Origin: a virus
DNA: 64,000 nt
Reading direction: 5' to 3' (one strand)
Virus record (IMG/VR): IMGVR_UViG_3300045999_008996
Coordinates: 124,001 to 188,000 of that record
Position numbers and translations under genes: made by a program. Below are positions 30,911 through 61,312 of the stretch, in pieces. The first letter of the stretch is position 1. Every line of letters begins with the position of its first letter. Under the pieces are notes generated by a model that saw only the letters and a program-made list of their open reading frames with translations, was not told the origin of the DNA and made no database searches.

Positions 30911-31972
30911 TCACAAGGCGTTCCCACGAGGCAACACCTCTTCTGGAAATTCAAATCGTTCGTGAATCTGATCTACAGGTGCCATCCAAGCTCTTAATCC
31001 CTCATTAAGAAGTATATTTTTTGTGTAAAATGTCTCAAATTCCGGGTCTTCTGCTGCACGAATCTCCTGACTTACAAAGTCGTAAGCACGTAGATTAAGA
31101 GCAAGACCGATAATACCAATACTGGAAGTCCAAAGACCCATAACAGGGACGAAAAGCATAAAGAAATGAAGCCAACGCTTATTACTGAAAGCAATACCAA
31201 AGATCTGAGACCAGAATCGGTTTGCAGTAACCATTGAATAGGTTTCTTCTTCTTGAGTAGGTTCAAAAGCCTTGAAAGTGTTTGATTGATCACTGTCTTC
31301 ATAAAGTGTATTCTCTACAGTTGCTCCGTGAATTGCACAGAGCAGTGCTCCTCCCAGTATACCAGCAACTCCCATCATATGGAAGGGGTTGAGAGTCCAG
31401 TTGTGGAAACCCTGAAGGAACAGAAGGAACCTGAAGATTGCTGCCACTCCAAACGAGGGTGCGAAGAACCAACTGGATTGTCCTAGTGGATACATCAGGA
31501 AAACGCTGACGAACACAGCGATAGGACCAGAGAAGGCAATAGCGTTATAAGGACGAATACCAACCAGTCGTGAAATCTCAAACTGACGAAGCATGAATCC
31601 AATCAGGCTGAAAGCCCCGTGGAGCGCCACAAAAGTCCAGAGTCCCCCAAGTTGGCACCACCTGATGAAATCCCCTTGAGACTCAGGACCCCAAAGTAGA
31701 AGAAGAGAATGACCCATAGAATCTGCAGGCGTTGACACAGCTGCCGTAAGGAAATTAGCACCCTCAAGGTAACTAGACGCCAACCCGTGGGTGTACCAGC
31801 TTGTAACAAACGTTGTGCCAGTAAGCCAGCCACCAAGGGCAAGATAAGCAGTGGGAAAAAGTAGTAGTCCAGACCAACCCACAAATACAAAGCGATCTCG
31901 TTTAAGCCAGTCATCCAAGACATCGAACCAACCTCTCTGTGAAATGGGCGGTGAAAGTGTAGAAGAAGTCAT
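30911..31972 (-). CDS. psbD: Photosystem II D2 protein
   Basis: 353 residues, full length. Five transmembrane helices; [20 protein letters not shown] loop, and HGATVENTL and [20 protein letters not shown] around the iron/quinone site, with the usual C-terminus [12 protein letters not shown]. Keeps PSII running during infection together with phage psbA. SD AGGAGG before ATG; both sigma-70-type and late elements upstream. Followed by a strong terminator. Start M-T-S-S-T is cyanophage-like and lacks the longer cyanobacterial N-terminus. Confidence 0.97.
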
Positions 31973-32469: not shown

Positions 32470-33549
32470 TCAACCGATTGCTGGAGCAGTGAGAGCAACA
32501 GGAGTTGCTTCGGCAGCAGCCAGGTCCAGTGGGAAATTATGAGCATTACGCTCGTGCATTACCTCCATTCCCAGTCCAGCACGATTAAGGACATCAGCCC
32601 AGGTGTTAACTACACGACCCTGACTATCAAGCAGAGACTGATTAAAGTTGAAGCCATTCAAATTGAATGCCATCGTGGAAACACCAAGAGCAGTGAACCA
32701 GATGCCGACCACGGGCCAGGCAGCAAGGAAGAAGTGAAGTGAACGAGAGTTGTTGAACGAAGCGTATTGGAAGATTAGACGACCAAAGTAACCGTGAGCA
32801 GCAACAATGTTATAAGTCTCTTCTTCTTGACCAAACTTGTAACCATAGTTCTGTGACTCATTCTCAGTGGTTTCACGAACCAGTGAGGAAGTAACCAGAG
32901 AACCGTGCATCGCACTGAACAGAGAACCACCGAAGACACCAGCAACTCCAAGCATGTGGAAGGGGTGCATCAGGATATTATGTTCTGCCTGAAACACAAG
33001 CATGTAATTGAACGTACCAGAGATACCCAGGGGCATTGCGTCTGAGAAAGAACCTTGACCGAAAGGATAGACTAGGAATACGGCGCTTGCAGCAGCAACA
33101 GGTGCAGAGTAAGCAACGCAAATCCAGGGACGCATACCTAGGCGGTAAGAAAGTTCCCATTCACGACCCATGTAAGCATAGATGCCAATTAGAAAGTGGA
33201 ATACGACCAGTTGGAAAGGTCCTCCGTTATATAGCCACTCATCAAGTGAAGCGGCTTCCCAGATGGGGTAAAAGTGCAGTCCAATTGCGTTGGAAGAAGG
33301 AATCACAGCACCAGAGATGATGTTGTTTCCATACATGAGTGAACCAGCAACAGGTTCACGAATACCATCAATGTCCACGGGGGGAGCACCGATGAATGCG
33401 ATGATGAAGCAAGTGGTTGCTGCGAGCAATGTTGGAATCATCAAGGTTCCAAAATTGCCGATGTATATACGATTATCGGTAGAAGTAACCCAGTTGAGAT
33501 ACTTTTCCCAAAGATTTTCTTGTTGTTTTACTGAAATTGTAGCAGTCAT
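32470..33549 (-). CDS. psbA: Photosystem II D1 protein
   Basis: 359 residues from [17 protein letters not shown] (ATG 33547-33549); the 21 codons upstream lack D1 similarity. No intron. Five helices, [20 protein letters not shown], and the C-terminal [13 protein letters not shown] processing region. Residue 130 is Glu (YMGRE), the form associated with high-light D1:2. Replaces fast-turning host D1 during infection. Transcribed from TTGACG-N17-TATACT with a leader of about 160 bases containing three hairpins. Confidence 0.97.
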
Positions 33550-33719: not shown

Positions 33720-33748
33720 AGTATAGGGCATCACTCAATTTTCGTCAA
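33720..33748 (-). promoter_or_regulatory. psbA promoter TTGACG-N17-TATACT
   Basis: Both hexamers 5/6 with 17-base spacing; the -35 lies in the last codons of the HNH gene. The downstream CTAAATA may act as a weak late element. Confidence 0.7.
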
Positions 33749-34370
33749 GTCCTTCTGGGGTCTTTTTTCTGGACCACTTGTGAAACTGGCAGTGCTTCTT
33801 CATACTCTCACTTCTTTTCTTATTACTTTCTTCACTAAAAACTTGTTGTGCTCTTTTATCTCTTATTTTCTGTTTACTCTCTTCACTATGATTTTTATTT
33901 TCACACCCTTTCTTTGGTCCTGGTTTGAGGTGTAGTTCATACCCAAATTTTGAACACTCCCGAATAGCCCTTTTAATTTGATGTTCTTTTAGTCCCAGCA
34001 AATCAGCAACTTCTTTTCTACTCATACCAGATTGTCTATATTTAAGAATAGAAAGTTCTTGCTGTGTTGGTTCTGTTTTTTTAGGTGGTCCTCCACCAAC
34101 TCTTACACCTTTCTTATTTTCAGTTCCATTTTTCTTTCTTGTTTCATATCCTTTTCTTGCCCACAAGACACTTTCATTTTCGTGGACTTCTGCGTGAAGT
34201 GCTGGATGATAAACATATAAGTGCTCTGGAATGTTTCTACCACCTTCACATCTTGGTGGATTATGGTGAACATCCATATCTTTCATTTGCTCATCAGTAA
34301 GTCCATAGTGCTGTTGAGCAACTTTACGATAGTTATGTTTATCAGTAGAGAGAACAATAGCAGAGCACAT
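33735..34370 (-). CDS. HNH homing endonuclease beside psbA
   Basis: 211 residues from MCSAIVLSTDKHNYRKVAQ (ATG 34368-34370, GGAG six bases before). DVHHNPPRCEGGRNIPEHLY and HPALHAEVH form the HNH core; a helix-turn-helix SRKEVADLLGLKEHQIKRAI and NUMOD3-like HSEESKQKIRDKRAQQ follow. Such enzymes near psbA (for example F-CphI of S-PM2) promote spread of the psbA region. The start region is held in a 12-bp hairpin with a late-like element in its loop. Confidence 0.85.
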   Translation of the reverse strand: MCSAIVLSTDKHNYRKVAQQHYGLTDEQMKDMDVHHNPPRCEGGRNIPEHLYVYHPALHAEVHENESVLWARKGYETRKKNGTENKKGVRVGGGPPKKTEPTQQELSILKYRQSGMSRKEVADLLGLKEHQIKRAIRECSKFGYELHLKPGPKKGCENKNHSEESKQKIRDKRAQQVFSEESNKKRSESMKKHCQFHKWSRKKTPEGLDEN

Positions 34371-34410
34371 AAAAAACTCCAAACCTACTATTATTTAGGT
34401 AGGTTTGGAG
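34371..34410 (-). promoter_or_regulatory. 12-bp hairpin: terminator covering the HNH ribosome binding site
   Basis: Stem CTCCAAACCTAC/GTAGGTTTGGAG with a 10-base loop, then TTTTTTATG on the minus strand. The GGAG of the 3' arm is the ribosome binding site for the HNH ATG. The loop reads CTAAATAATA, close to a late promoter. Confidence 0.7.
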
Positions 34411-36422: not shown

Positions 36423-36881
36423 TTATGAAAACCAAAGTTTACCTTCTGCAACTCTTCTTCTCTTCAATCCCGCTTCCACACTTGTTCCTGGGTTATGATA
36501 AAGATATAAAGCATCAGGTACCTTAGTCCATTCTTTATTTTTAAGAACTCTGGTTATGGTATTAAAATTGGAAGACCCGTAAAAACCAGCACCAAGATTA
36601 TAAGCAAAAGAAAGAAGTGCTCCTTTTTGATTTTCATTCATTTCACTCCAGTAAGGTATTCTTTGTAGTGATGGCAAAAATCTATTCTTTAAATCAAATT
36701 CAAGTAGAGTGTCTGCATACTTTTGAGTAATCACTCTACCTATTTTGAAGGGTGTCCCATCAAAGTCTTTAGTGCTTCCCCAACCAATTGTAATCGGCGG
36801 TCCTTTTGTTAAAGGATCTGGATAAGCATTTAAATGACATCCTTCAAACTCTTTGATTAAATTAATGCCAACCAACGGCAC
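36423..36881 (-). CDS. T4-type lysozyme (GH24), probably made as a frameshift fusion
   Basis: 152 residues if started at GTG 36879-36881. GINLIKEFEGCHLNAYPDP (catalytic Glu in FEG), ITIGWGSTKD, and QKGALLSFAYNLGAGFYGSS identify the endolysin/GH24 muramidase family. There is no ATG and no SD; the frame is open from just after the slippery site A AAA AAG of the peptidase gene. Product may therefore be only the C-terminal domain of a peptidase-lysozyme polyprotein. Confidence 0.85.
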   Translation of the reverse strand: MPLVGINLIKEFEGCHLNAYPDPLTKGPPITIGWGSTKDFDGTPFKIGRVITQKYADTLLEFDLKNRFLPSLQRIPYWSEMNENQKGALLSFAYNLGAGFYGSSNFNTITRVLKNKEWTKVPDALYLYHNPGTSVEAGLKRRRVAEGKLWFS

Positions 36882-36923
36882 TTCATTGGCATTATTAATG
36901 TTAGTTGGCGCTTCTACTTTTTT
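36867..36923 (-). promoter_or_regulatory. -1 programmed frameshift signal: A AAA AAG plus stem-loop
   Basis: Slippery heptamer at 36917-36923 (zero frame GCA AAA AAG TAG). A 7-base spacer (36910-36916) contains the stop, followed by a 10-bp stem (36900-36909 with 36867-36876, one G-U pair, 23-base loop). The -1 frame reads GTA GAA GCG CCA and leads without stop into the lysozyme. Confidence 0.75.
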
Positions 36924-37609
36924 GCATCAAAAATACGACCCCAACCAGTCTTATCTCTTCCTTTTTCTAACCAACGATAAGTAAGGTCTGACTTTTTATA
37001 GACTGAACCTTTACCATTCGTAACTGGTCCAGTGTAACCATCGTTTAGAGAACCATAAGGATCGTTAACAACGTAGTCCTCACCTTTCTTTCCAATCACT
37101 ACAACCATGTGCCCGCCAGTAGGATTAGATAAAGAGCCGCGGTGCAGGATACCAATAACGACAGGTCTCCCAGCAGATAACTCACGATCAAGATCAACAA
37201 ACCCAAGATTGTAACTAAAGCGTGACTTAATTCCATAATTTTCCAGAACTTTTGTCTGGACGGTGTGATCAGTTGAATCACCAATCGCAAAAACTTTTTG
37301 GACATAGGCATCATCGCCTTTTGCTCCTTGAAGCGTACCTGGTTTGAAATACTCTAGGCACATCGCACAAGCAGATGAGTTGCAAGTTCTTTGTGCATCT
37401 CTATAATTATCTGTTTGTGGATAAAAAGGAACAGGAAGAACTCCAGGAACAGTTGGTTTTGTTCTATAAATTCTAACCCAATTAGAAGTGTCTTCAAGCA
37501 AATCTGGGTTCTTACTTACAAGATCAACCTCAAATTGTTCTACAGCAGCAACATGCTTTGGATTGTTCTCATCATAATGTTTAAAAAAGTTATGAAGATC
37601 TACTCTCAT
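36914..37609 (-). CDS. C39-like cysteine peptidase
   Basis: 231 residues. Catalytic Cys in RTCNSSACAMCLEYF, His in TGGHMVVVIGKKG and Asp in YVVNDPYGS form the papain-like triad of the C39-like peptidase family. N-terminal 55 residues are a separate helical part. Likely cleaves peptide crosslinks of peptidoglycan during lysis or entry. Late promoter upstream. The last two Lys codons are the -1 slippery site. Confidence 0.8.
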   Translation of the reverse strand: MRVDLHNFFKHYDENNPKHVAAVEQFEVDLVSKNPDLLEDTSNWVRIYRTKPTVPGVLPVPFYPQTDNYRDAQRTCNSSACAMCLEYFKPGTLQGAKGDDAYVQKVFAIGDSTDHTVQTKVLENYGIKSRFSYNLGFVDLDRELSAGRPVVIGILHRGSLSNPTGGHMVVVIGKKGEDYVVNDPYGSLNDGYTGPVTNGKGSVYKKSDLTYRWLEKGRDKTGWGRIFDAKK

Positions 37610-37631: not shown

Positions 37632-37639
37632 TATTTATT
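37632..37639 (-). promoter_or_regulatory. Late promoter element AATAAATA
   Basis: Matches NATAAATA, in the T-tract just past the peroxiredoxin terminator, 23 bases before the peptidase ATG. Confidence 0.6.
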
Positions 37640-55938: not shown

Positions 55939-55939
55939 G

Positions 55940-56012
55940 TGCTCCTTGCGTGGATCGAACACGCCTCAGGCGAATTATGAGTTCGCTGCATTCACCAGAT
56001 TGCTAAAGGAGC
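55940..56012 (-). tRNA. tRNA-Met/Ile2 (CAT), copy 1
   Basis: Acceptor GCTCCTT/AAGGAGC, anticodon stem GCGAA/TTCGC, loop CTCATAA, T-loop TTCGATC. Could be elongator Met or lysidine-type Ile. Confidence 0.85.
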
Positions 56013-56016
56013 AAGG

Positions 56017-56104
56017 TACGAGTGGGTGGATTCGAACCACCTCAAAGCCGCTAATCTGGCGGAAAGGCGTTATAAGTGCCCTCTGACTACCAAGTCTCAC
56101 TCGC
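56017..56104 (-). tRNA. Class II tRNA, anticodon loop CTTATAA (TAT?)
   Basis: Acceptor GCGAGTG/CACTCGT, T-arm GGTGG-TTCGAAT-CCACC, and a long variable arm CCGC/GCGG. Loop reads TAT in the anticodon position, with an A-C mismatch closing the loop. Amino-acid identity uncertain (Leu/Ser/Tyr-type body, Ile-type anticodon). Confidence 0.5.
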
Positions 56105-56117
56105 TTGAACCAGGTCT

Positions 56118-56146
56118 ATTATAGAGGACCTGGAACTCTATGTCAA
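56118..56146 (-). promoter_or_regulatory. Perfect promoter TTGACA-N17-TATAAT before the tRNAs
   Basis: The -10 lies in the loop of a CCAGGTC/GACCTGG hairpin. Drives the two tRNAs and small genes below; overlaps the 3' end of the antitoxin-like gene. Confidence 0.7.
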
Positions 56147-56373
56147 GAACCTTCTTCGTGGTCAGTGTGTATTCGTATCATATCATCATCCACTTTAGAT
56201 TCTACTGCAAACTTTATAGTTTCGTTATATGGAACAATCACTGCGTTTCTTTCTCCATCAGTAATAATAAATGATTCGCCGTTCTCTACTCTTTGTATTA
56301 GATTGTCAAAATCTACTTGAAACTCTTGAACTGTAAATTTTTGGAGATCTGAAAGTTCTGGATACATTTTCAT
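56143..56373 (-). CDS. Phd/YefM-like antitoxin, 76 aa, without a visible toxin
   Basis: Start at MKMYPELSDLQKFTVQEFQV. FTVQEFQVDFDNLIQRVENG, ESFIITDGERNAVIVPYNE is the antitoxin DNA-binding fold; the acidic C-terminus is the toxin-neutralising end. No RelE/Doc-like gene adjoins, so it may inhibit a host toxin or act as a regulator. Longer starts would cover tRNA-Pro. Confidence 0.75.
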   Translation of the reverse strand: MKMYPELSDLQKFTVQEFQVDFDNLIQRVENGESFIITDGERNAVIVPYNETIKFAVESKVDDDMIRIHTDHEEGS

Positions 56374-56389
56374 AAAGTGAAGTTTATGA

Positions 56390-56461
56390 TCGGGGTGAGA
56401 GGGATCGAACCTCTGTCTTCTTGCTCCCAAAGCAAGCCGTCTACCGCTGACTTACACCCCG
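56390..56461 (-). tRNA. tRNA-Pro (TGG)
   Basis: Acceptor CGGGGTG/CACCCCG, stem CTTGC/GCAAG, loop TTTGGGA. One base from the 38-aa ORF stop. Confidence 0.92.
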
Positions 56462-56578
56462 TTATTTGTTTCTGTGTATAAACATAATACCAGCAAATGG
56501 TACGATTGTCAACCCACATCCACAAAGAAAAAGAAAGAAGGGACTTGCTGCTAATGTTTCAACAAGATGAAAAATCAT
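56462..56578 (-). CDS. Membrane micropeptide, 38 aa
   Basis: MIFHLVETLAASPFFLFLCG then CGLTIVPFAGIMFIHRNK. Hydrophobic helix with Cys pair. ATGA overlap with the upstream gene. Contains the promoter of tRNA-Pro. Confidence 0.5.
   Translation of the reverse strand: MIFHLVETLAASPFFLFLCGCGLTIVPFAGIMFIHRNK
56484..56512 (-). promoter_or_regulatory. Promoter TTGACA-N17-TATTAT (intragenic) for tRNA-Pro
   Basis: Inside the 38-aa gene, about 25 bases before the tRNA 5' end. Confidence 0.65.
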
Positions 56579-56802
56579 CTTCCCCTCCAGTTCTTGTATT
56601 CATAATACATGTATTGGTCGGTTTCGTCAAGCCCCTGTAAAGGAGCATGAACGTCCCAGTGTGACCATTCAATACAGAACTGTTTAATATGTATATCATT
56701 AACAGCAGTCTTTACTCCATACATTCTAGAAAATGAAGACATTGCAAAATGATATTTTTGTCTAATGTGCGGTTCCATTTCCCTTATATTCTTTGGAGTC
56801 AT
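56575..56802 (-). CDS. Hypothetical protein, 75 aa
   Basis: MTPKNIREMEPHIRQKYHFA, CIEWSHWDVHAPLQGLDETD, ending in an aromatic tail. Overlaps neighbours on both sides. It contains TTGACG-N17-TATTAT (56602-56630). Unknown. Confidence 0.6.
   Translation of the reverse strand: MTPKNIREMEPHIRQKYHFAMSSFSRMYGVKTAVNDIHIKQFCIEWSHWDVHAPLQGLDETDQYMYYEYKNWRGR
56602..56630 (-). promoter_or_regulatory. Intragenic promoter TTGACG-N17-TATTAT
   Basis: 5/6 hexamers and 17-base spacer inside the 75-aa gene, toward the 38-aa ORF, tRNA-Pro and antitoxin. Confidence 0.5.
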
Positions 56803-56881
56803 AGTATCCTCCTCTTGTTCCGAAATAGAGTGTTGTTAAAACAAACGGAATAGAAATGAAAATAAGTGCTTTACCTAACAT
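56762..56881 (-). CDS. Membrane micropeptide, 39 aa
   Basis: MLGKALIFISIPFVLTTLYF then GTRGGYYDSKEYKGNGTAH. Strong SD-like GGGGGA before ATG; overlaps gnd by 11 bases. Confidence 0.5.
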   Translation of the reverse strand: MLGKALIFISIPFVLTTLYFGTRGGYYDSKEYKGNGTAH

Positions 56882-57893
56882 GATGTCCCCCAAACATATA
56901 ACGCATTCCGTTTAGGATTTTTGCTCCGAATGATCCGAGATTGCGTGAGTTAAATCTTTCAAATAGTGCTGTAGTAATAACAGGAGCGGGAACCCCCAGG
57001 TCCACAGCGGCAGAAACAGTCCAACGACCCTCACCACTATCGGATACTCCTCCAGAGAACTGTTTAAGGCTACCATCCCGGCGTAACACATCAGCAGTAA
57101 GATCAAGTAACCAAGACCCAACCACGCTACCGCGACGCCATAACTCAGCAACCTCAGCAACATCAATATCATAACAATAGGATTCGGGGTCTGCCATAGG
57201 GGCGACTTCTGCATCTCCTTCTCTAACATATTTGGCACCCACATTAGCGTTCTTCAGAATGTTGAAACCTTCTGCATATGCTTGCATTATTCCATACTCA
57301 ATACCGTTGTGAACCATCTTCACAAAATGTCCTGCACCTGGACCACCACAATGCAACCAACCAAACTCAGCAGAAGTTACATCCGAGTCATACTGAGTCC
57401 TGGGGGCAGCGTTGATTCCTGGAGCGAGGGCATCAAAAATGCTTGCACAAGTGGCGACCGCAGTATTTCCGCCACCAACCATAAGACAGTATCCACGATC
57501 CAAACCATAAACACCGCCGCTAGTACCACAATCAATATATTGGATACCAAGTTTTGCAAGACGCTCTGCTCTCTTCCGACTGTCTTTAAAATTGCTATTG
57601 CCATGATCAATAATAATATCTCCCTCACCACAATATCGTAGTAACTCATTGATTGTTTCCTCTACAGTTTCTGCTGGCACAACCATTTGAAATATTCCTG
57701 GATTGCCATTACCTTTTACTACTTGAACAAGGCTTTGTATAGTAGTCGTAACACCATTAACATATCCGTTTTCATATGCTTCTTGAGCCTTTTCATAGTT
57801 CCTTCGGTAACCCCAAACCTCAATACCCGCTTTCATCATGCGGCGAGACATTCCTTCACCCATTCTTCCCAAACCAATTAATCCTACTTTCAT
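56871..57893 (-). CDS. gnd: 6-phosphogluconate dehydrogenase
   Basis: 340 residues from MKVGLIGLGRMGEGMSRR; GGAGG upstream sets the start. NADP loop GLGRMG, DIIIDHGNSNFKDS, DCGTSGGVYGLDRGY, and GGPGAGHFVKMVHNGIEYG (catalytic Lys, substrate-binding). Short (YqeC/GndA-type) version. Makes NADPH and ribulose-5-P from the pentose phosphate pathway for nucleotide synthesis. Confidence 0.95.
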   Translation of the reverse strand: MKVGLIGLGRMGEGMSRRMMKAGIEVWGYRRNYEKAQEAYENGYVNGVTTTIQSLVQVVKGNGNPGIFQMVVPAETVEETINELLRYCGEGDIIIDHGNSNFKDSRKRAERLAKLGIQYIDCGTSGGVYGLDRGYCLMVGGGNTAVATCASIFDALAPGINAAPRTQYDSDVTSAEFGWLHCGGPGAGHFVKMVHNGIEYGIMQAYAEGFNILKNANVGAKYVREGDAEVAPMADPESYCYDIDVAEVAELWRRGSVVGSWLLDLTADVLRRDGSLKQFSGGVSDSGEGRWTVSAAVDLGVPAPVITTALFERFNSRNLGSFGAKILNGMRYMFGGHHVR

Positions 57894-57985
57894 AAAACCT
57901 CCGGATATGCGTGTGTAAGTCCCCAATGTATAAAAAGTCCAATAGACGAAAAAAGAAGAATTGTAGATATTATTGTTTTAATCAT
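57890..57985 (-). CDS. Membrane micropeptide, 31 aa
   Basis: MIKTIISTILLFSSIGLFIH then WGLTHAYPEVL. One hydrophobic helix; its TGA overlaps the gnd ATG. Confidence 0.5.
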   Translation of the reverse strand: MIKTIISTILLFSSIGLFIHWGLTHAYPEVL

Positions 57986-58091
57986 CTTCTTCATCTTCGT
58001 AAGCAGATGGTTCTTCAAAGAGTTCTTCCATTTTTTGTTGAAGAACTCTTTTGTTTAGTTTTTGCAAATCTTCTTCTGTGATTGTTACCAT
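57978..58091 (-). CDS. Acidic small protein, 37 aa
   Basis: MVTITEEDLQKLNKRVLQQK then MEELFEEPSAYEDEEDD. Coiled helix, acidic tail; eight-base overlap downstream and TAATG with the gene upstream. Confidence 0.5.
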   Translation of the reverse strand: MVTITEEDLQKLNKRVLQQKMEELFEEPSAYEDEEDD

Positions 58092-58294
58092 TAGTTTAAA
58101 GTAATTTTAAGAAATGGAAGTAACGGGGGAATAACTCCAACTAATCTCAAAAGTCCCTCAGCAAATAAAGCAAGAACCACCCAACCGACGCACATACTAA
58201 TGATAGAAGCATTACGGTTGTGTCTTCGGATAGCAGCATCAATCATCTCCTGAACTTCAGAACGTGTGATAAATTCTTCTTGTTCGTGCATCAT
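58091..58294 (-). CDS. Membrane protein, 67 aa
   Basis: MMHEQEEFITRSEVQEMIDA helix, then SMCVGWVVLALFAEGLLRLV membrane span and a short Pro/Leu end. Coupled by ATGA to the 49-aa gene upstream. Confidence 0.6.
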   Translation of the reverse strand: MMHEQEEFITRSEVQEMIDAAIRRHNRNASIISMCVGWVVLALFAEGLLRLVGVIPPLLPFLKITLN

Positions 58295-58440
58295 TTTTCA
58301 TCGCCAAGAAATTTTGCAAGAGGGTCTCTTCGGGTTTTTACGATTTCAACTGCTCTTTTGTAGAACATATTATCCATGTTCCCAGAAGATTCAAAAGTTG
58401 CTTTGATCTTCACCCAATTATCGTAGGTGTGTTGATCCAT
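58291..58440 (-). CDS. Hypothetical protein, 49 aa
   Basis: MDQHTYDNWVKIKATFESSG, NMFYKRAVEIVKTRRDPLAK. Helical. A weak TTGACA-N16-TAGTAT element lies upstream (58463-58490). Unknown. Confidence 0.6.
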   Translation of the reverse strand: MDQHTYDNWVKIKATFESSGNMDNMFYKRAVEIVKTRRDPLAKFLGDEK

Positions 58441-58555
58441 CGGTTCGTCCCCGTGATACTACTATATACTAATCACAGGTATTTCGATGTCAACTTTTTG
58501 TGTTCATATCGTAACACTGTTGAAAAAATTATTAAATTTGTAACTATTCTTAAAA

Positions 58556-58641
58556 CGGAAGCGGTAGGATTTGAACCCACGAACGCTATTAACGTTGGTT
58601 GTTTTCAAGACAACTGCCATAAACCACTCGGCCACGCTTCC
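58556..58641 (-). tRNA. tRNA-Ser (TGA)
   Basis: Acceptor GGAAGCG/CGCTTCC, stem GTTGT/ACAAC, loop CTTGAAA, long variable arm. Confidence 0.93.
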
Positions 58642-58651
58642 AGTAGAAGGT

Positions 58652-58903
58652 TCAACGAACCTCAAAATCCAATCGTTTTACTTTACGTTGGCGTCTTGCT
58701 TCTTGAAAAGCAAGATCTTGCGAAGAAAGAACATTTGATTTTTGTTCTTTCTGGATAGAGTTTAACATAACAATGCGAGATAAGTCAAGTGCTGATATCT
58801 TATCTCCACGAATTGTTGCCATATTAGGACAACCACAGGTCACCGTTTTTGAATGATGTCCTGTTATTTCCTTATTACAATCTTTGCATCTTATTGAAAT
58901 CAT
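58652..58903 (-). CDS. Small zinc-ribbon-like protein, 83 aa
   Basis: MISIRCKDCNKEITGHHSKT, VTCGCPN: CxxC and CxC pair consistent with one zinc. The rest is helical (QDLAFQEARRQRKVKRLDFE). Function unknown. Confidence 0.65.
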   Translation of the reverse strand: MISIRCKDCNKEITGHHSKTVTCGCPNMATIRGDKISALDLSRIVMLNSIQKEQKSNVLSSQDLAFQEARRQRKVKRLDFEVR

Positions 58904-58918
58904 GATTCTTCATCCTAT

Positions 58919-59353
58919 TCATTGCAGGTGTGCTCTTAACTGCCAAACAAACTTACCATGAGATTCCATTAAATCTTGAACTAAATTTGCTGTAGCATAT
59001 GACTTTTGATTTTCAGATTCTTCCGAAATCTCTACCATTAAATCACAAAACTTGGTATTGTTATCAAGAAGCTCTTGAAGCATTTCTTTTGCTCCAGTTG
59101 AACTTGCTGCCTCTTTGATTTGAGTTACCTCAAGCATTCTAGAAAGAGAACTGAGAGGTTTTACATTCAAATAACGCATATGTTCCGAAAGACGATCAAT
59201 CTCTTCAAACATAGTTTCATACTGACCGCCAAAGAGTTGATGAAGTTGAGTGAAGTCTTCACCTACAACATTCCAATGAAATGCCCAAGTTTTATGGAAT
59301 AAAACAAAAAGCGATGACTGTGCATCACTCAAGAGTTTATAAAGTTTTTCCAT
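58919..59353 (-). CDS. dps: Dps-like ferritin
   Basis: 144 residues from MEKLYKLLSDAQSSLFVLFH. KTWAFHWNVVGEDFTQLHQL and FGGQYETMFEEIDRLSEHMR carry the di-iron ligands of the Dps family (H, H, D/E). A DNA-protecting iron-storage protein against oxidative stress. Longer starts would run through two tRNA genes. Confidence 0.88.
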   Translation of the reverse strand: MEKLYKLLSDAQSSLFVLFHKTWAFHWNVVGEDFTQLHQLFGGQYETMFEEIDRLSEHMRYLNVKPLSSLSRMLEVTQIKEAASSTGAKEMLQELLDNNTKFCDLMVEISEESENQKSYATANLVQDLMESHGKFVWQLRAHLQ

Positions 59354-59381
59354 TATACTCTTTTTATTTTTATTTATCAAG

Positions 59382-59454
59382 TGGGCAAAGAGGGATTCGA
59401 ACCCCCGACATCCTCCGTGTAAAGGAGACGCTACTACCGCTGAGCTATTTGCCC
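59382..59454 (-). tRNA. tRNA-Val (TAC)
   Basis: Acceptor GGGCAAA/TTTGCCC, loop TTTACAC, T-loop TTCGAAT. Confidence 0.92.
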
Positions 59455-59457
59455 TGG

Positions 59458-59529
59458 CTCCACAACCTGGATTCGAACCAGGGACCAAGTGATTAACAGT
59501 CACCGACTCTACCGCTGAGCTATTGTGGA
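59458..59529 (-). tRNA. tRNA-Asn (GTT)
   Basis: Acceptor TCCACAA/TTGTGGA, stem GGTGA/TCACT, loop CTGTTAA. Confidence 0.93.
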
Positions 59530-59533
59530 ATGA

Positions 59534-59603
59534 AGGAAGTTACTGGACTTACACCAGTTACGAGGGCATTGTCTGCTTGTCTTGATTCTTTGACTTAACT
59601 TCC
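59534..59603 (-). other. Degenerate tRNA-like element
   Basis: 8-bp acceptor-like GGAAGTTA/TAACTTCC, 3-bp D-like arm GTC/GAC, T-like arm ACTGG-TGTAAGT-CCAGT lacking TTC, and only a GCA/TGC centre arm without T33. It sits in register in the tRNA array. Probably a decayed tRNA or a tRNA-mimic RNA. Confidence 0.5.
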
Positions 59604-59643
59604 TTTGGCGTCTTTCTATGCTATCTGCATAACGACTACCAAG

Positions 59644-59716
59644 AGCGAAAGACGAGATTCGAACTCGCAACAACCTGCTTGGAAGGCAGGGACTCTACCG
59701 TTGAGTTACTTTCGCA
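59644..59716 (-). tRNA. tRNA-Gly (TCC)
   Basis: Acceptor GCGAAAG/CTTTCGC, stem CCTGC/GCAGG, loop CTTCCAA. Confidence 0.93.
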
Positions 59717-59724
59717 ATGAGACA

Positions 59725-59753
59725 ATCATAAACTATTTTAGTTTGATTGTCAA
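59725..59753 (-). promoter_or_regulatory. Promoter TTGACA-N17-TATGAT in the tRNA array
   Basis: Perfect -35, 5/6 -10; nine bases before tRNA-Gly. Confidence 0.65.
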
Positions 59754-59754
59754 G

Positions 59755-59836
59755 TGTCGATGAGAGGACTTGAACCTCCACAGATTAATCTACTGGAACC
59801 TAAACCCAGCGCGTCTACCAATTCCGCCACATCGAC
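59755..59836 (-). tRNA. tRNA-Leu (TAG)
   Basis: Class II; acceptor GTCGATG/CATCGAC, stem CTGGG/TCCAG, loop TTTAGGT. Confidence 0.92.
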
Positions 59837-59900
59837 TTGATGGAGTAAGTATGATATACCTCATAAGGATATAACAGTGACTTACCCTCTATCATTTTAT

Positions 59901-59929
59901 ATATTAACAGACTCAAAAGAATCTGTCAA
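59901..59929 (-). promoter_or_regulatory. Promoter TTGACA-N17-TAATAT in the tRNA array
   Basis: Between tRNA-Arg(ACG) and tRNA-Leu(TAG), the widest gap in the array. Confidence 0.5.
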
Positions 59930-59930
59930 G

Positions 59931-60003
59931 CGTCCTTTGAGAGATTCGAACTCCCGCACATAGGTTCGTAGCCTACTGCTCTATTCCACTGAGCTAAAAG
60001 GAC
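59931..60003 (-). tRNA. tRNA-Arg (ACG)
   Basis: Acceptor GTCCTTT/AAAGGAC, loop CTACGAA. Confidence 0.92.
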
Positions 60004-60006
60004 AAG

Positions 60007-60078
60007 TTCTGAGGGTAGGATTCGAACCCACGAATGGCGGGACCAAAACCCGCTGCCTTACCGCTTGGCGACCTCAGA
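60007..60078 (-). tRNA. tRNA-Gln (TTG)
   Basis: Acceptor TCTGAGG/CCTCAGA, stem GCGGG/CCCGC, loop TTTTGGT. Confidence 0.92.
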
Positions 60079-60150
60079 AGCCCTCAATTGGATTTGAACC
60101 AACGACCTACTCATTACTAGTGAGTTGCTCTACCACTGAGCTATAAGGGC
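60079..60150 (-). tRNA. tRNA-Thr (AGT)
   Basis: Acceptor GCCCTTA/TGAGGGC, stem ACTCA/TGAGT, loop CTAGTAA. Abuts tRNA-Gln with no spacer. Confidence 0.9.
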
Positions 60151-60152
60151 GG

Positions 60153-60223
60153 GGTGCCGTGAGGGAATCGAACCCTCATATAGAGAACCACAATCTCCTG
60201 TCTTACCATTAGACTAACGACAC
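60153..60223 (-). tRNA. tRNA-His (GTG)
   Basis: Acceptor GTGTCGT/ACGGCAC, loop TTGTGGT. The usual extra G-1 is not encoded next to it (the base is T). Confidence 0.88.
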
Positions 60224-60224
60224 A

Positions 60225-60298
60225 AGGCAGTAGATAGATTTGAACTATCGACCATAGGCATATGAGACCCGTGCTCTGCCAGACTGAGCTATACTGCC
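60225..60298 (-). tRNA. tRNA-Met/Ile2 (CAT), copy 2
   Basis: Acceptor GGCAGTA/TACTGCC, loop CTCATAT; one mismatch in the anticodon stem. Lysidine-type Ile possible. Confidence 0.82.
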
Positions 60299-60300
60299 AA

Positions 60301-60389
60301 CGGAAGTGGTTGGATTCGAACCAACGGATGCCTATAAAGACATCGGCGGATTAGCAATCCACTGCATTAGACCTCTCTGCCACACTTCC
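60301..60389 (-). tRNA. tRNA-Ser (GCT)
   Basis: Acceptor GGAAGTG/CACTTCC, stem GTGGA/TCCGC, loop TTGCTAA, long variable arm. Confidence 0.92.
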
Positions 60390-60391
60390 AA

Positions 60392-60465
60392 TAGGAATGG
60401 TGAGATTCGAACTCACGACCACACGATTATCAGTCGTGTACTCTAACCAACTGAGCTACATTCCT
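60392..60465 (-). tRNA. tRNA-Ile (GAT)
   Basis: Acceptor AGGAATG/CATTCCT, stem CACGA/TCGTG, loop CTGATAA. Confidence 0.93.
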
Positions 60466-60469
60466 GTGG

Positions 60470-60541
60470 TATTCCTAACGGGATTCGAACCCGTGCTGCC
60501 ACCTTGAAAGGGTGGTGACCTAACCGCTAGTCGATAGGAAC
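60470..60541 (-). tRNA. tRNA-Glu (TTC)
   Basis: Acceptor GTTCCTA/TAGGAAT, stem CCACC/GGTGG, loop CTTTCAA. Confidence 0.93.
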
Positions 60542-60589
60542 TTAATGCTGACGGCATTCTGGATTATCAGCTCCAGCGCAAATCAGCAA

Positions 60590-60661
60590 CGACTCTAACG
60601 GGATTTGAACCCGTGATACTACCGTGACAGGGTAGCGTGATAACCGCTTCACTATAGAGTC
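60590..60661 (-). tRNA. tRNA-Asp (GTC)
   Basis: Acceptor GACTCTA/TAGAGTC, stem CTACC/GGTAG, loop CTGTCAC. A 48-base spacer before tRNA-Glu holds nothing recognised. Confidence 0.93.
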
Positions 60662-60665
60662 AAGG

Positions 60666-60747
60666 TGGGAGGAGCAGGATTCGAACCTGCGAAGGTAGAA
60701 CCGTCTGATTTACAGTCAGATTCCTTTAGCCACTCGGAAATCCTCCC
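60666..60747 (-). tRNA. tRNA-Tyr (GTA)
   Basis: Acceptor GGGAGGA/TCCTCCC, stem TCTGA/TCAGA, loop CTGTAAA, class II. Confidence 0.93.
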
Positions 60748-60750
60748 AGA

Positions 60751-60823
60751 TGGGTATGGTCGGGTTCGAACCGACGACTTACAGGTTAAAAGCCCGCTAC
60801 TCTACCAACTGAGTTACATACCC
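60751..60823 (-). tRNA. tRNA-Lys (TTT)
   Basis: Acceptor GGGTATG/CATACCC, loop CTTTTAA. Last-upstream tRNA of the contiguous block. Confidence 0.93.
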
Positions 60824-60939
60824 TTAGAATTAAATTGTCAAGGTTCGGGGTGTGGTCTCTCTCGACCACTTGATTAGAATACCACCTTTTGGACTCTGGG
60901 GGGAGATTGGTGGACACTTAGGAAACTGGTCCAAGCAAC

Positions 60940-60972
60940 AAAAAAGGGGAGGAAACTTTTGGTTTCTCTCCC
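60940..60972 (-). terminator. Strong terminator
   Basis: Stem GGGGAGAGAAAC/GTTTCCTCCCC with one bulge, then T6 on the minus strand. Ends the 33-aa ORF transcript. The stretch 60824-60939 shows nothing else recognisable. Confidence 0.8.
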
Positions 60973-60998
60973 CTCTATTTGCTTTTATGGATTGCATA

Positions 60999-61100
60999 TT
61001 ACATATGTCTTTCCATTTCAGCAAACAGGGGATTACCCTCAATATGCCAATCACGGCAATCGAGAGTACTAATCTGTTTGGTGGTGATTTGGAAAGACAT
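60999..61100 (-). CDS. Late-promoter micro-gene, 33 aa
   Basis: MSFQITTKQISTLDCRDWHI then EGNPLFAEMERHM. Perfect late TATAAATA 22 bases upstream and a strong terminator downstream form a complete transcription unit. Unknown function. Confidence 0.5.
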   Translation of the reverse strand: MSFQITTKQISTLDCRDWHIEGNPLFAEMERHM

Positions 61101-61121
61101 TGTTTTCGACCTAAGTGTTTT

Positions 61122-61129
61122 TATTTATA
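61122..61129 (-). promoter_or_regulatory. Late promoter TATAAATA (perfect)
   Basis: Minus strand, between tRNA-Arg(TCT) and the 33-aa ORF. Confidence 0.7.
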
Positions 61130-61152
61130 AGACTTTTATTTAAAAAGTCTAA

Positions 61153-61226
61153 CGGGTTAGGAGGGACTCGAACCCCCGACCAATTCATTAGAAGTGAATT
61201 GCTCTATCCATCTGAGCTACTAACCC
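61153..61226 (-). tRNA. tRNA-Arg (TCT)
   Basis: Acceptor GGGTTAG/CTAACCC, stem ATTCA/TGAAT, loop CTTCTAA; preceded by a CCTCTC/GAGAGG inverted repeat. Confidence 0.93.
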
Positions 61227-61312
61227 AAGAGACCTCTCTGTTTGTGCTTCTATGAGAGGCATGAGAGGGGTGAGACTTATATGAGGTTTGGACCCTCACT
61301 GCTCATATGATT

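Follow-up and report, generated by a model that had tools for sequence, protein, structure and literature searches.

The DNA analysed here (the window, 64,000 bases) is the section 124001-188000 of a cyanophage record, 222,563 bases in length, that carries psbA, psbD and a large tRNA array. Within it, a gene for a C39-like cysteine peptidase ends with GAT GCA AAA AAG TAG, and a GH24 lysozyme follows in the -1 frame (Table 1). Direct reading agrees with the initial annotation in placing an A AAA AAG heptamer, in register, against the TAG, followed after a 7-nt spacer by a potential 10-bp stem (including one G-U pair) that closes a 23-nt loop. An in-frame slippery heptamer of the X XXY YYZ type is combined with an open -1 frame. 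Elsewhere in the window, the photosystem genes psbD (31019-31888) and psbA (32596-33468) lie on the minus strand, as does an ORF adjoining psbA (33735-34382) that resembles an HNH-type homing endonuclease. The tRNA array (55939-61227, minus strand) is dense, with 19 genes that include tRNA-Lys(UUU) and tRNA-Arg(ACG).

Table 1. Features of the peptidase-lysozyme locus and the phage lysine tRNA, in window coordinates.
Feature	Position	Strand	Basis
Zero-frame ORF, C39-like cysteine peptidase, 231 aa, C-terminus ...FDAKK*	36914..37609	-	PF13529, PHROG 3617
Slippery heptamer A AAA AAG, zero-frame register	36917..36923	-	sequence reading
Zero-frame stop TAG, immediately 3' of heptamer	36914..36916	-	sequence reading
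7-nt spacer, heptamer to stem	36910..36916	-	sequence reading
Stem 5' arm GCCAACTAAC, putative stimulatory	36900..36909	-	sequence reading and comparison of relatives
Stem 3' arm GTTGGTTGGC, within start of lysozyme domain	36867..36876	-	sequence reading and comparison of relatives
-1 frame ORF, linker and GH24 lysozyme	36423..36926	-	PF00959
GTG, sole conventional start ahead of lysozyme domain, no Shine-Dalgarno	36879..36881	-	sequence reading
ATAAATA, possible T4-type late promoter of the peptidase-lysozyme unit	37632..37638	-	motif match
Phage tRNA-Lys(UUU)	60751..60823	-	tRNA search

The peptidase matches Peptidase_C39_2 (PF13529, E=5e-11, 43.7 bits against a Pfam cut-off of 24) and PHROG 3617 (E=2e-89). 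Its C, H and D motifs (CNSS.CAM, GGHM and DPYG), for which catalytic roles are putative, are kept across the aligned fusions. A sequence search of the PDB returned no C39 relative, and Foldseek matched the C39-like peptidase 3erv weakly (E=1.6e-3). The claim that the -1 frame runs openly into a GH24 lysozyme was confirmed, with no interruption from 36926 to the stop codon at 36425-36423 and a match to Phage_lysozyme (PF00959, E=4e-22, 79 bits against a cut-off of 22.3). The E/D/T catalytic positions of GH24 are present (EFEG...YPDP...ITIGWG), and PDB 9kbq is a relative in the structural database (E=2.5e-15). A slip at the heptamer is predicted to add 164 residues (from 36917), giving a 395-aa fusion.

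The position at which the frame could change is closely bounded. In the -1 frame a TGA (36929-36927) stands shortly before the slip site and reading is open only from 36926, so that any shift has to fall within some ten bases, where the slippery site is the heptamer. Its placement also seems to go beyond chance, because among the 22 in-frame copies of A_AAA_AAG in the 236 phage ORFs of at least 100 aa, only the copy at the peptidase end lies 6 nt or less from a stop. Upstream of the heptamer, the sole candidate for a Shine-Dalgarno-like stimulator is a G-rich TGGGG about 15 nt away, which conserved WGR codons would account for. The description of the lysozyme as having neither an ATG nor a ribosome binding site, and a GTG as its one candidate start, also holds. 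The ATAAATA ahead of the peptidase may be a T4-type late promoter; the motif is not enriched within the 64-kb window.

To place this arrangement among its relatives, we drew on tblastn searches of annotated phages, in which 105 records matched the peptidase and 538 the lysozyme, and on scans of viral contigs, which led to about 260 loci. The peptidase is followed by the lysozyme at 161 distinct junctions, the window included; at 126 of these the lysozyme overlaps in another frame, and that frame is -1 in all 126. The overlaps comprise 96 with the heptamer, eight with both the heptamer and an ATGA stop/start, 22 with ATGA only and none lacking both, counts that do not represent independent events given the kinship among the loci. 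Heptamer and lysozyme domain are separated by 8 to 68 nt, in 13 different lengths, every one of which keeps the -1 frame. Such agreement bears on whether a sequencing error or a decayed gene has split what is truly one ORF, a reading for which one-frame fusions among the relatives could be cited, and an error in the six-A run had been among the concerns of the initial annotation. However, about 100 distinct loci, metagenomic contigs included, share the same frame relation with both domains intact, and the junction is identical in two records of S-PM2 and in three isolates of S-CAM7. This concordance leads us to exclude sequencing error, which would also leave the covarying stem described below unexplained, and the chance that a single true ORF lies here is vanishingly small. 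The S-PM2 linker is without any start codon, and the annotated lysin of this phage is a truncated ORF whose start lies a long way downstream (NC_006820.1, 116499-116717). Both the S-PM2 and S-CAM7 lysin annotations are short ORFs that start inside the lysozyme domain, and each is probably half of a trans-frame protein, annotated wrongly.

Conservation at the slip site is strict. Of the 104 distinct loci with a heptamer, 101 have A AAA AAG and three have U_UUU_UUU (the S-CAM7 type), with the stop codon 0, 3 or 6 nt 3' of it in 83, 18 and 3 loci, respectively. That stop is TAG in 76 of the 104 loci, TAG being the rarest stop of this phage genome (29/236). The codon ahead of the heptamer ends in A in 101/101 cases (GCA, GTA, ACA, ATA or GAA), against a background in the same genes of just 28-40% A-ending Ala, Val and Thr codons, and the order AAA then AAG is invariant, where other conserved lysine columns mix the two. 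A run of this kind might allow RNA polymerase to add an A and so restore a fused frame by transcriptional slippage; the naturally fused relatives L202 and L217 do carry A7, and the T8 (U8) run in which the S-CAM7 heptamer sits is long enough that slippage may occur at that locus. The run is nevertheless exactly A6 in 100 of the 101 A AAA AAG loci, below the usually cited An with n>7 (PMC3711429), and a hairpin 4-9 nt downstream of a heptamer in the A_AAA_AAG register is a ribosomal feature. We have rejected transcriptional slippage as the general mechanism on these two grounds, and consider it exceedingly unlikely here.

The initial annotation paired the heptamer and its spacer with a stem, and this combination recurs among homologous loci. 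Stems begin 4-9 nt 3' of the heptamer in nearly all relatives, and a stem score of at least 8 is reached in 88 of the 96 heptamer loci without ATGA, compared with 22% after exchange of 5' arms among dissimilar loci. The window's stem is of the GCCAACTAAC/GTTRGTTGGC type, and stems of unrelated sequence include GTTCTACTCC/GGAGTAGAAC, TCAACACCAC/GTGGTGTTGA, GTCCCACTAC/GTAGTGGG and GTAGAACCAC/GGGGTTCTAC, among others. When the pairing was anchored on the coding alignment, 89 of 99 loci fell into three registers spaced three bases from one another. In these three families 89-97% of cells are paired, compared with only 1-51% for slid partners, and both-side changes number 10, 12 and 10 cells against shuffled means of 3.5, 2.4 and 4.1. 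The window's stem falls in the register -2 family, in which 96.9% of cells are paired, with compensatory changes. The 3' arm lies within lysozyme codons and the 5' arm in free linker, and on the aligned sequences it is the 5' arm that tracks the 3' arm. A few heptamer loci without ATGA, such as L200 and L201, have no clear stem. Single-sequence folding of the window gave no proof of the 36909-36867 stem, since a competing hairpin located farther 3' (AATGCCAA/TTGGCATT) is nearly isoenergetic (-14.1 vs -13.7 kcal/mol, z=-1.9); the former stands out once the relatives are compared.

The lysozyme could instead be a second gene, translated from the GTG at 36881 or by termination-reinitiation after the TAG. 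This GTG is also present in several close relatives, and the ATGA overlaps in 22 heptamer-free and eight heptamer loci suggest that translational coupling is probably used in these peptidase-lysozyme relatives. However, in 51 of the 104 heptamer loci the stretch from where the -1 frame opens to the catalytic Glu holds no ATG, GTG or TTG, and we rejected an independent GTG start given that half of the relatives lack any conventional start and that the window's GTG has no Shine-Dalgarno. Two separate genes would also leave the heptamer, the A-ending codon ahead of it and the covarying stem unexplained. The stem is absent in 8/8 heptamer loci in which an ATG of the lysozyme's own overlaps the stop (S-SRM01 plus seven contigs; Fisher P=5e-8, computed over related loci without correction for kinship). 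Its loss exactly there runs counter to separate translation, and is expected if the stem serves frameshifting and is dispensable once a start is available. The scenario raised at the outset, in which related phages supply an ATG and Shine-Dalgarno for the lysozyme and fail to conserve the signal, was not borne out given the many start-less loci, although the 22 ATGA-only loci do exist. Separate translation of the lysozyme in this phage therefore seems very unlikely.

The decoding context was considered through the lysine tRNAs. The phage tRNA-Lys(UUU) is expected to read both slip-site codons, and no tRNA-Lys(CUU) was found in the phage genome. Synechococcus RCC307 was used as a host proxy, which may not be the actual host; a ferredoxin query matched no host genome, and the choice was made by psbA, which is 96% identical between RCC307 and the phage, as it is between the phage and a Cyanobium genome bin. 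Of the 41 RCC307 tRNAs, 35 could be read, including one Lys(UUU) and no Lys(CUU), the other six being of class-II length, and tRNA-Lys(UUU) appears to be its only lysine tRNA. In E. coli the slipperiness of A AAA AAG rests on a sole, weakly pairing tRNA-Lys, as set out in a large review (PMC5009743), and the dnaX-type combination of tRNA-Lys(UUU) without tRNA-Lys(CUU) is found in the phage and appears to hold in the proxy.

Taken together, the conserved heptamer, the covarying stem and the start-less lysozymes support the programmed -1 frameshift that the initial annotation put forward, and we consider it very probable that a two-product endolysin is expressed from this locus through -1 programmed ribosomal frameshifting. 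Ribosomes would translate the C39-like peptidase and arrive at A AAA AAG with tRNA-Lys in the P and A sites, where the hairpin about 7 nt downstream would hold them and putatively stimulate the slip. A fraction would move back one base, from AAA AAG to AAA AAA, bypass the TAG, pass the short linker and enter the GH24 muramidase, and the predicted products are the peptidase alone (231 aa) and a peptidase-linker-lysozyme (395 aa). As both would share one initiation site, their ratio would be set by the efficiency of slipping. That the slip occurs in infected cells, and with what efficiency, is something that we infer from the sequence. Both enzymes presumably cut the host wall at lysis, where the product ratio would matter, and we likewise suppose that there is a benefit to two products and an activity on cyanobacterial peptidoglycan.

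Other relatives use an ATGA overlap, separate genes or one-frame fusions. The peptidase tree calls for at least 25 changes of expression mode overall; the A AAA AAG frameshift label requires 20 changes, with at least seven forced by well supported branches, and exchange of the lysozyme half may contribute to such changes. In L202 and L217 an A7 run brings both domains into one frame, with a junction peptide closely similar to that of the proposed fusion, a point in favour of the frameshift, and L217, seen in six identical contigs, is 395 aa long, equal to the fusion proposed for the window. An alignment-based model of L217 (pLDDT 69, pTM 0.42) has two domains and a low-confidence linker at residues 231-239, and a single-sequence AlphaFold model of L202 gave a pLDDT of 37. 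In L068, L076, L008 and the ACG-2014f isolates (L403-L407, L411), counted as three of the one-frame relatives, the zero frame encodes the fusion, the A AAA AAG and hairpin are kept, and a TGA stands one codon on in the -1 frame, so that a frameshift of dnaX polarity could possibly give both products again. The TGA of ACG-2014f may be coincidental, because a similar SE/SD motif occurs in fused relatives that have no heptamer. S-CREM1 and L043 have the domains fused in reverse order. The heptamer-free ATGA class (L047, L071, L154-L169, L208, L257 and L273) has a distinct 52-aa lysozyme extension (MTIKFIDAVKNHKDLPHQ...) that matched nothing in Pfam and only weakly matched PHROG.

At separate-gene loci, the lysozyme bears its own copy of the first ~50-66 residues of the peptidase (45-58% identity, E ~1e-15 to 1e-17), as seen in DSL-LC02, DSL-LC03 (L004, L005), L062, L063, L070, L079, L083, L085, L086, L089, L090 and the fragment L084. 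A search for the function of this shared N-terminal module was without result. Both enzymes thus tend to bear the same module, which frameshifting achieves from one gene. It is possible, though we lean slightly towards doubt, that selection acts on the very split into peptidase and peptidase-lysozyme, with the slip site and downstream stem kept through inversions of frame polarity; the repeated moves among frameshift, stop/start overlap, one-frame fusion and separate genes would form part of this same tentative reading.

The mechanism is a known one, and as far as we found its use for a cyanophage endolysin has no earlier description. This accords with the initial annotation, which knew of no such cyanophage endolysin: searches on cyanophage, endolysin and frameshift gave no prior report among the titles and abstracts listed, which came from openly available published papers. 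The part covered of the frameshifting review (PMC5009743) contains no endolysin, lysozyme or cyanophage, and the main text of a survey of prokaryotic frame transitions (PMC3711429) mentions neither lysozyme nor endolysin. If our interpretation is right, this would be, as far as could be found, the first endolysin made via ribosomal frameshifting and an unusual phage use of A_AAA_AAG beyond transposons and tail chaperones. It would also correct an error that recurs in annotations, where the lysins of S-PM2 and S-CAM7 are listed as N-terminally truncated ORFs. The relatives provide many naturally occurring stimulator hairpins that covary, together with alternative architectures and, should the split prove to be selected, a natural experiment that could show why a phage doses its lysis enzymes. 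The viral family is large, and its hosts are the picocyanobacteria that these viruses kill.

The cyanophage locus shares A_AAA_AAG, a downstream hairpin and tRNA-Lys(UUU) with E. coli dnaX (tau/gamma), where frameshifting is given as about 50% efficient in the survey (PMC3711429) and in the review (PMC5009743). It differs in that the -1 product of dnaX is the short one, whereas here it is the long fusion, and in that the upstream Shine-Dalgarno stimulator of dnaX has here, at most, a candidate counterpart in the G-rich TGGGG. The IS3-family elements (IS911 and IS3) also combine a -1 shift, an A-rich heptamer and a downstream structure to make a longer fusion from two overlapping ORFs, but these encode transposases of mobile elements rather than an endolysin. 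Phage tail assembly chaperones (lambda gpG-T and HK97) similarly obtain two products from one start through programmed frameshifting in a phage gene, though for tail assembly and not for lysis. Among endolysins, CTP1L, phi2638A and LysIME-EF1 each yield two related polypeptides per gene, but do so through in-frame internal starts that leave a common C-terminus (PMC9430671). A short C-terminal isoform of that origin does not fit the present locus, where the lysozyme lies in another frame, and the two cyanophage products would instead share their N-terminus and be related through a frameshift.
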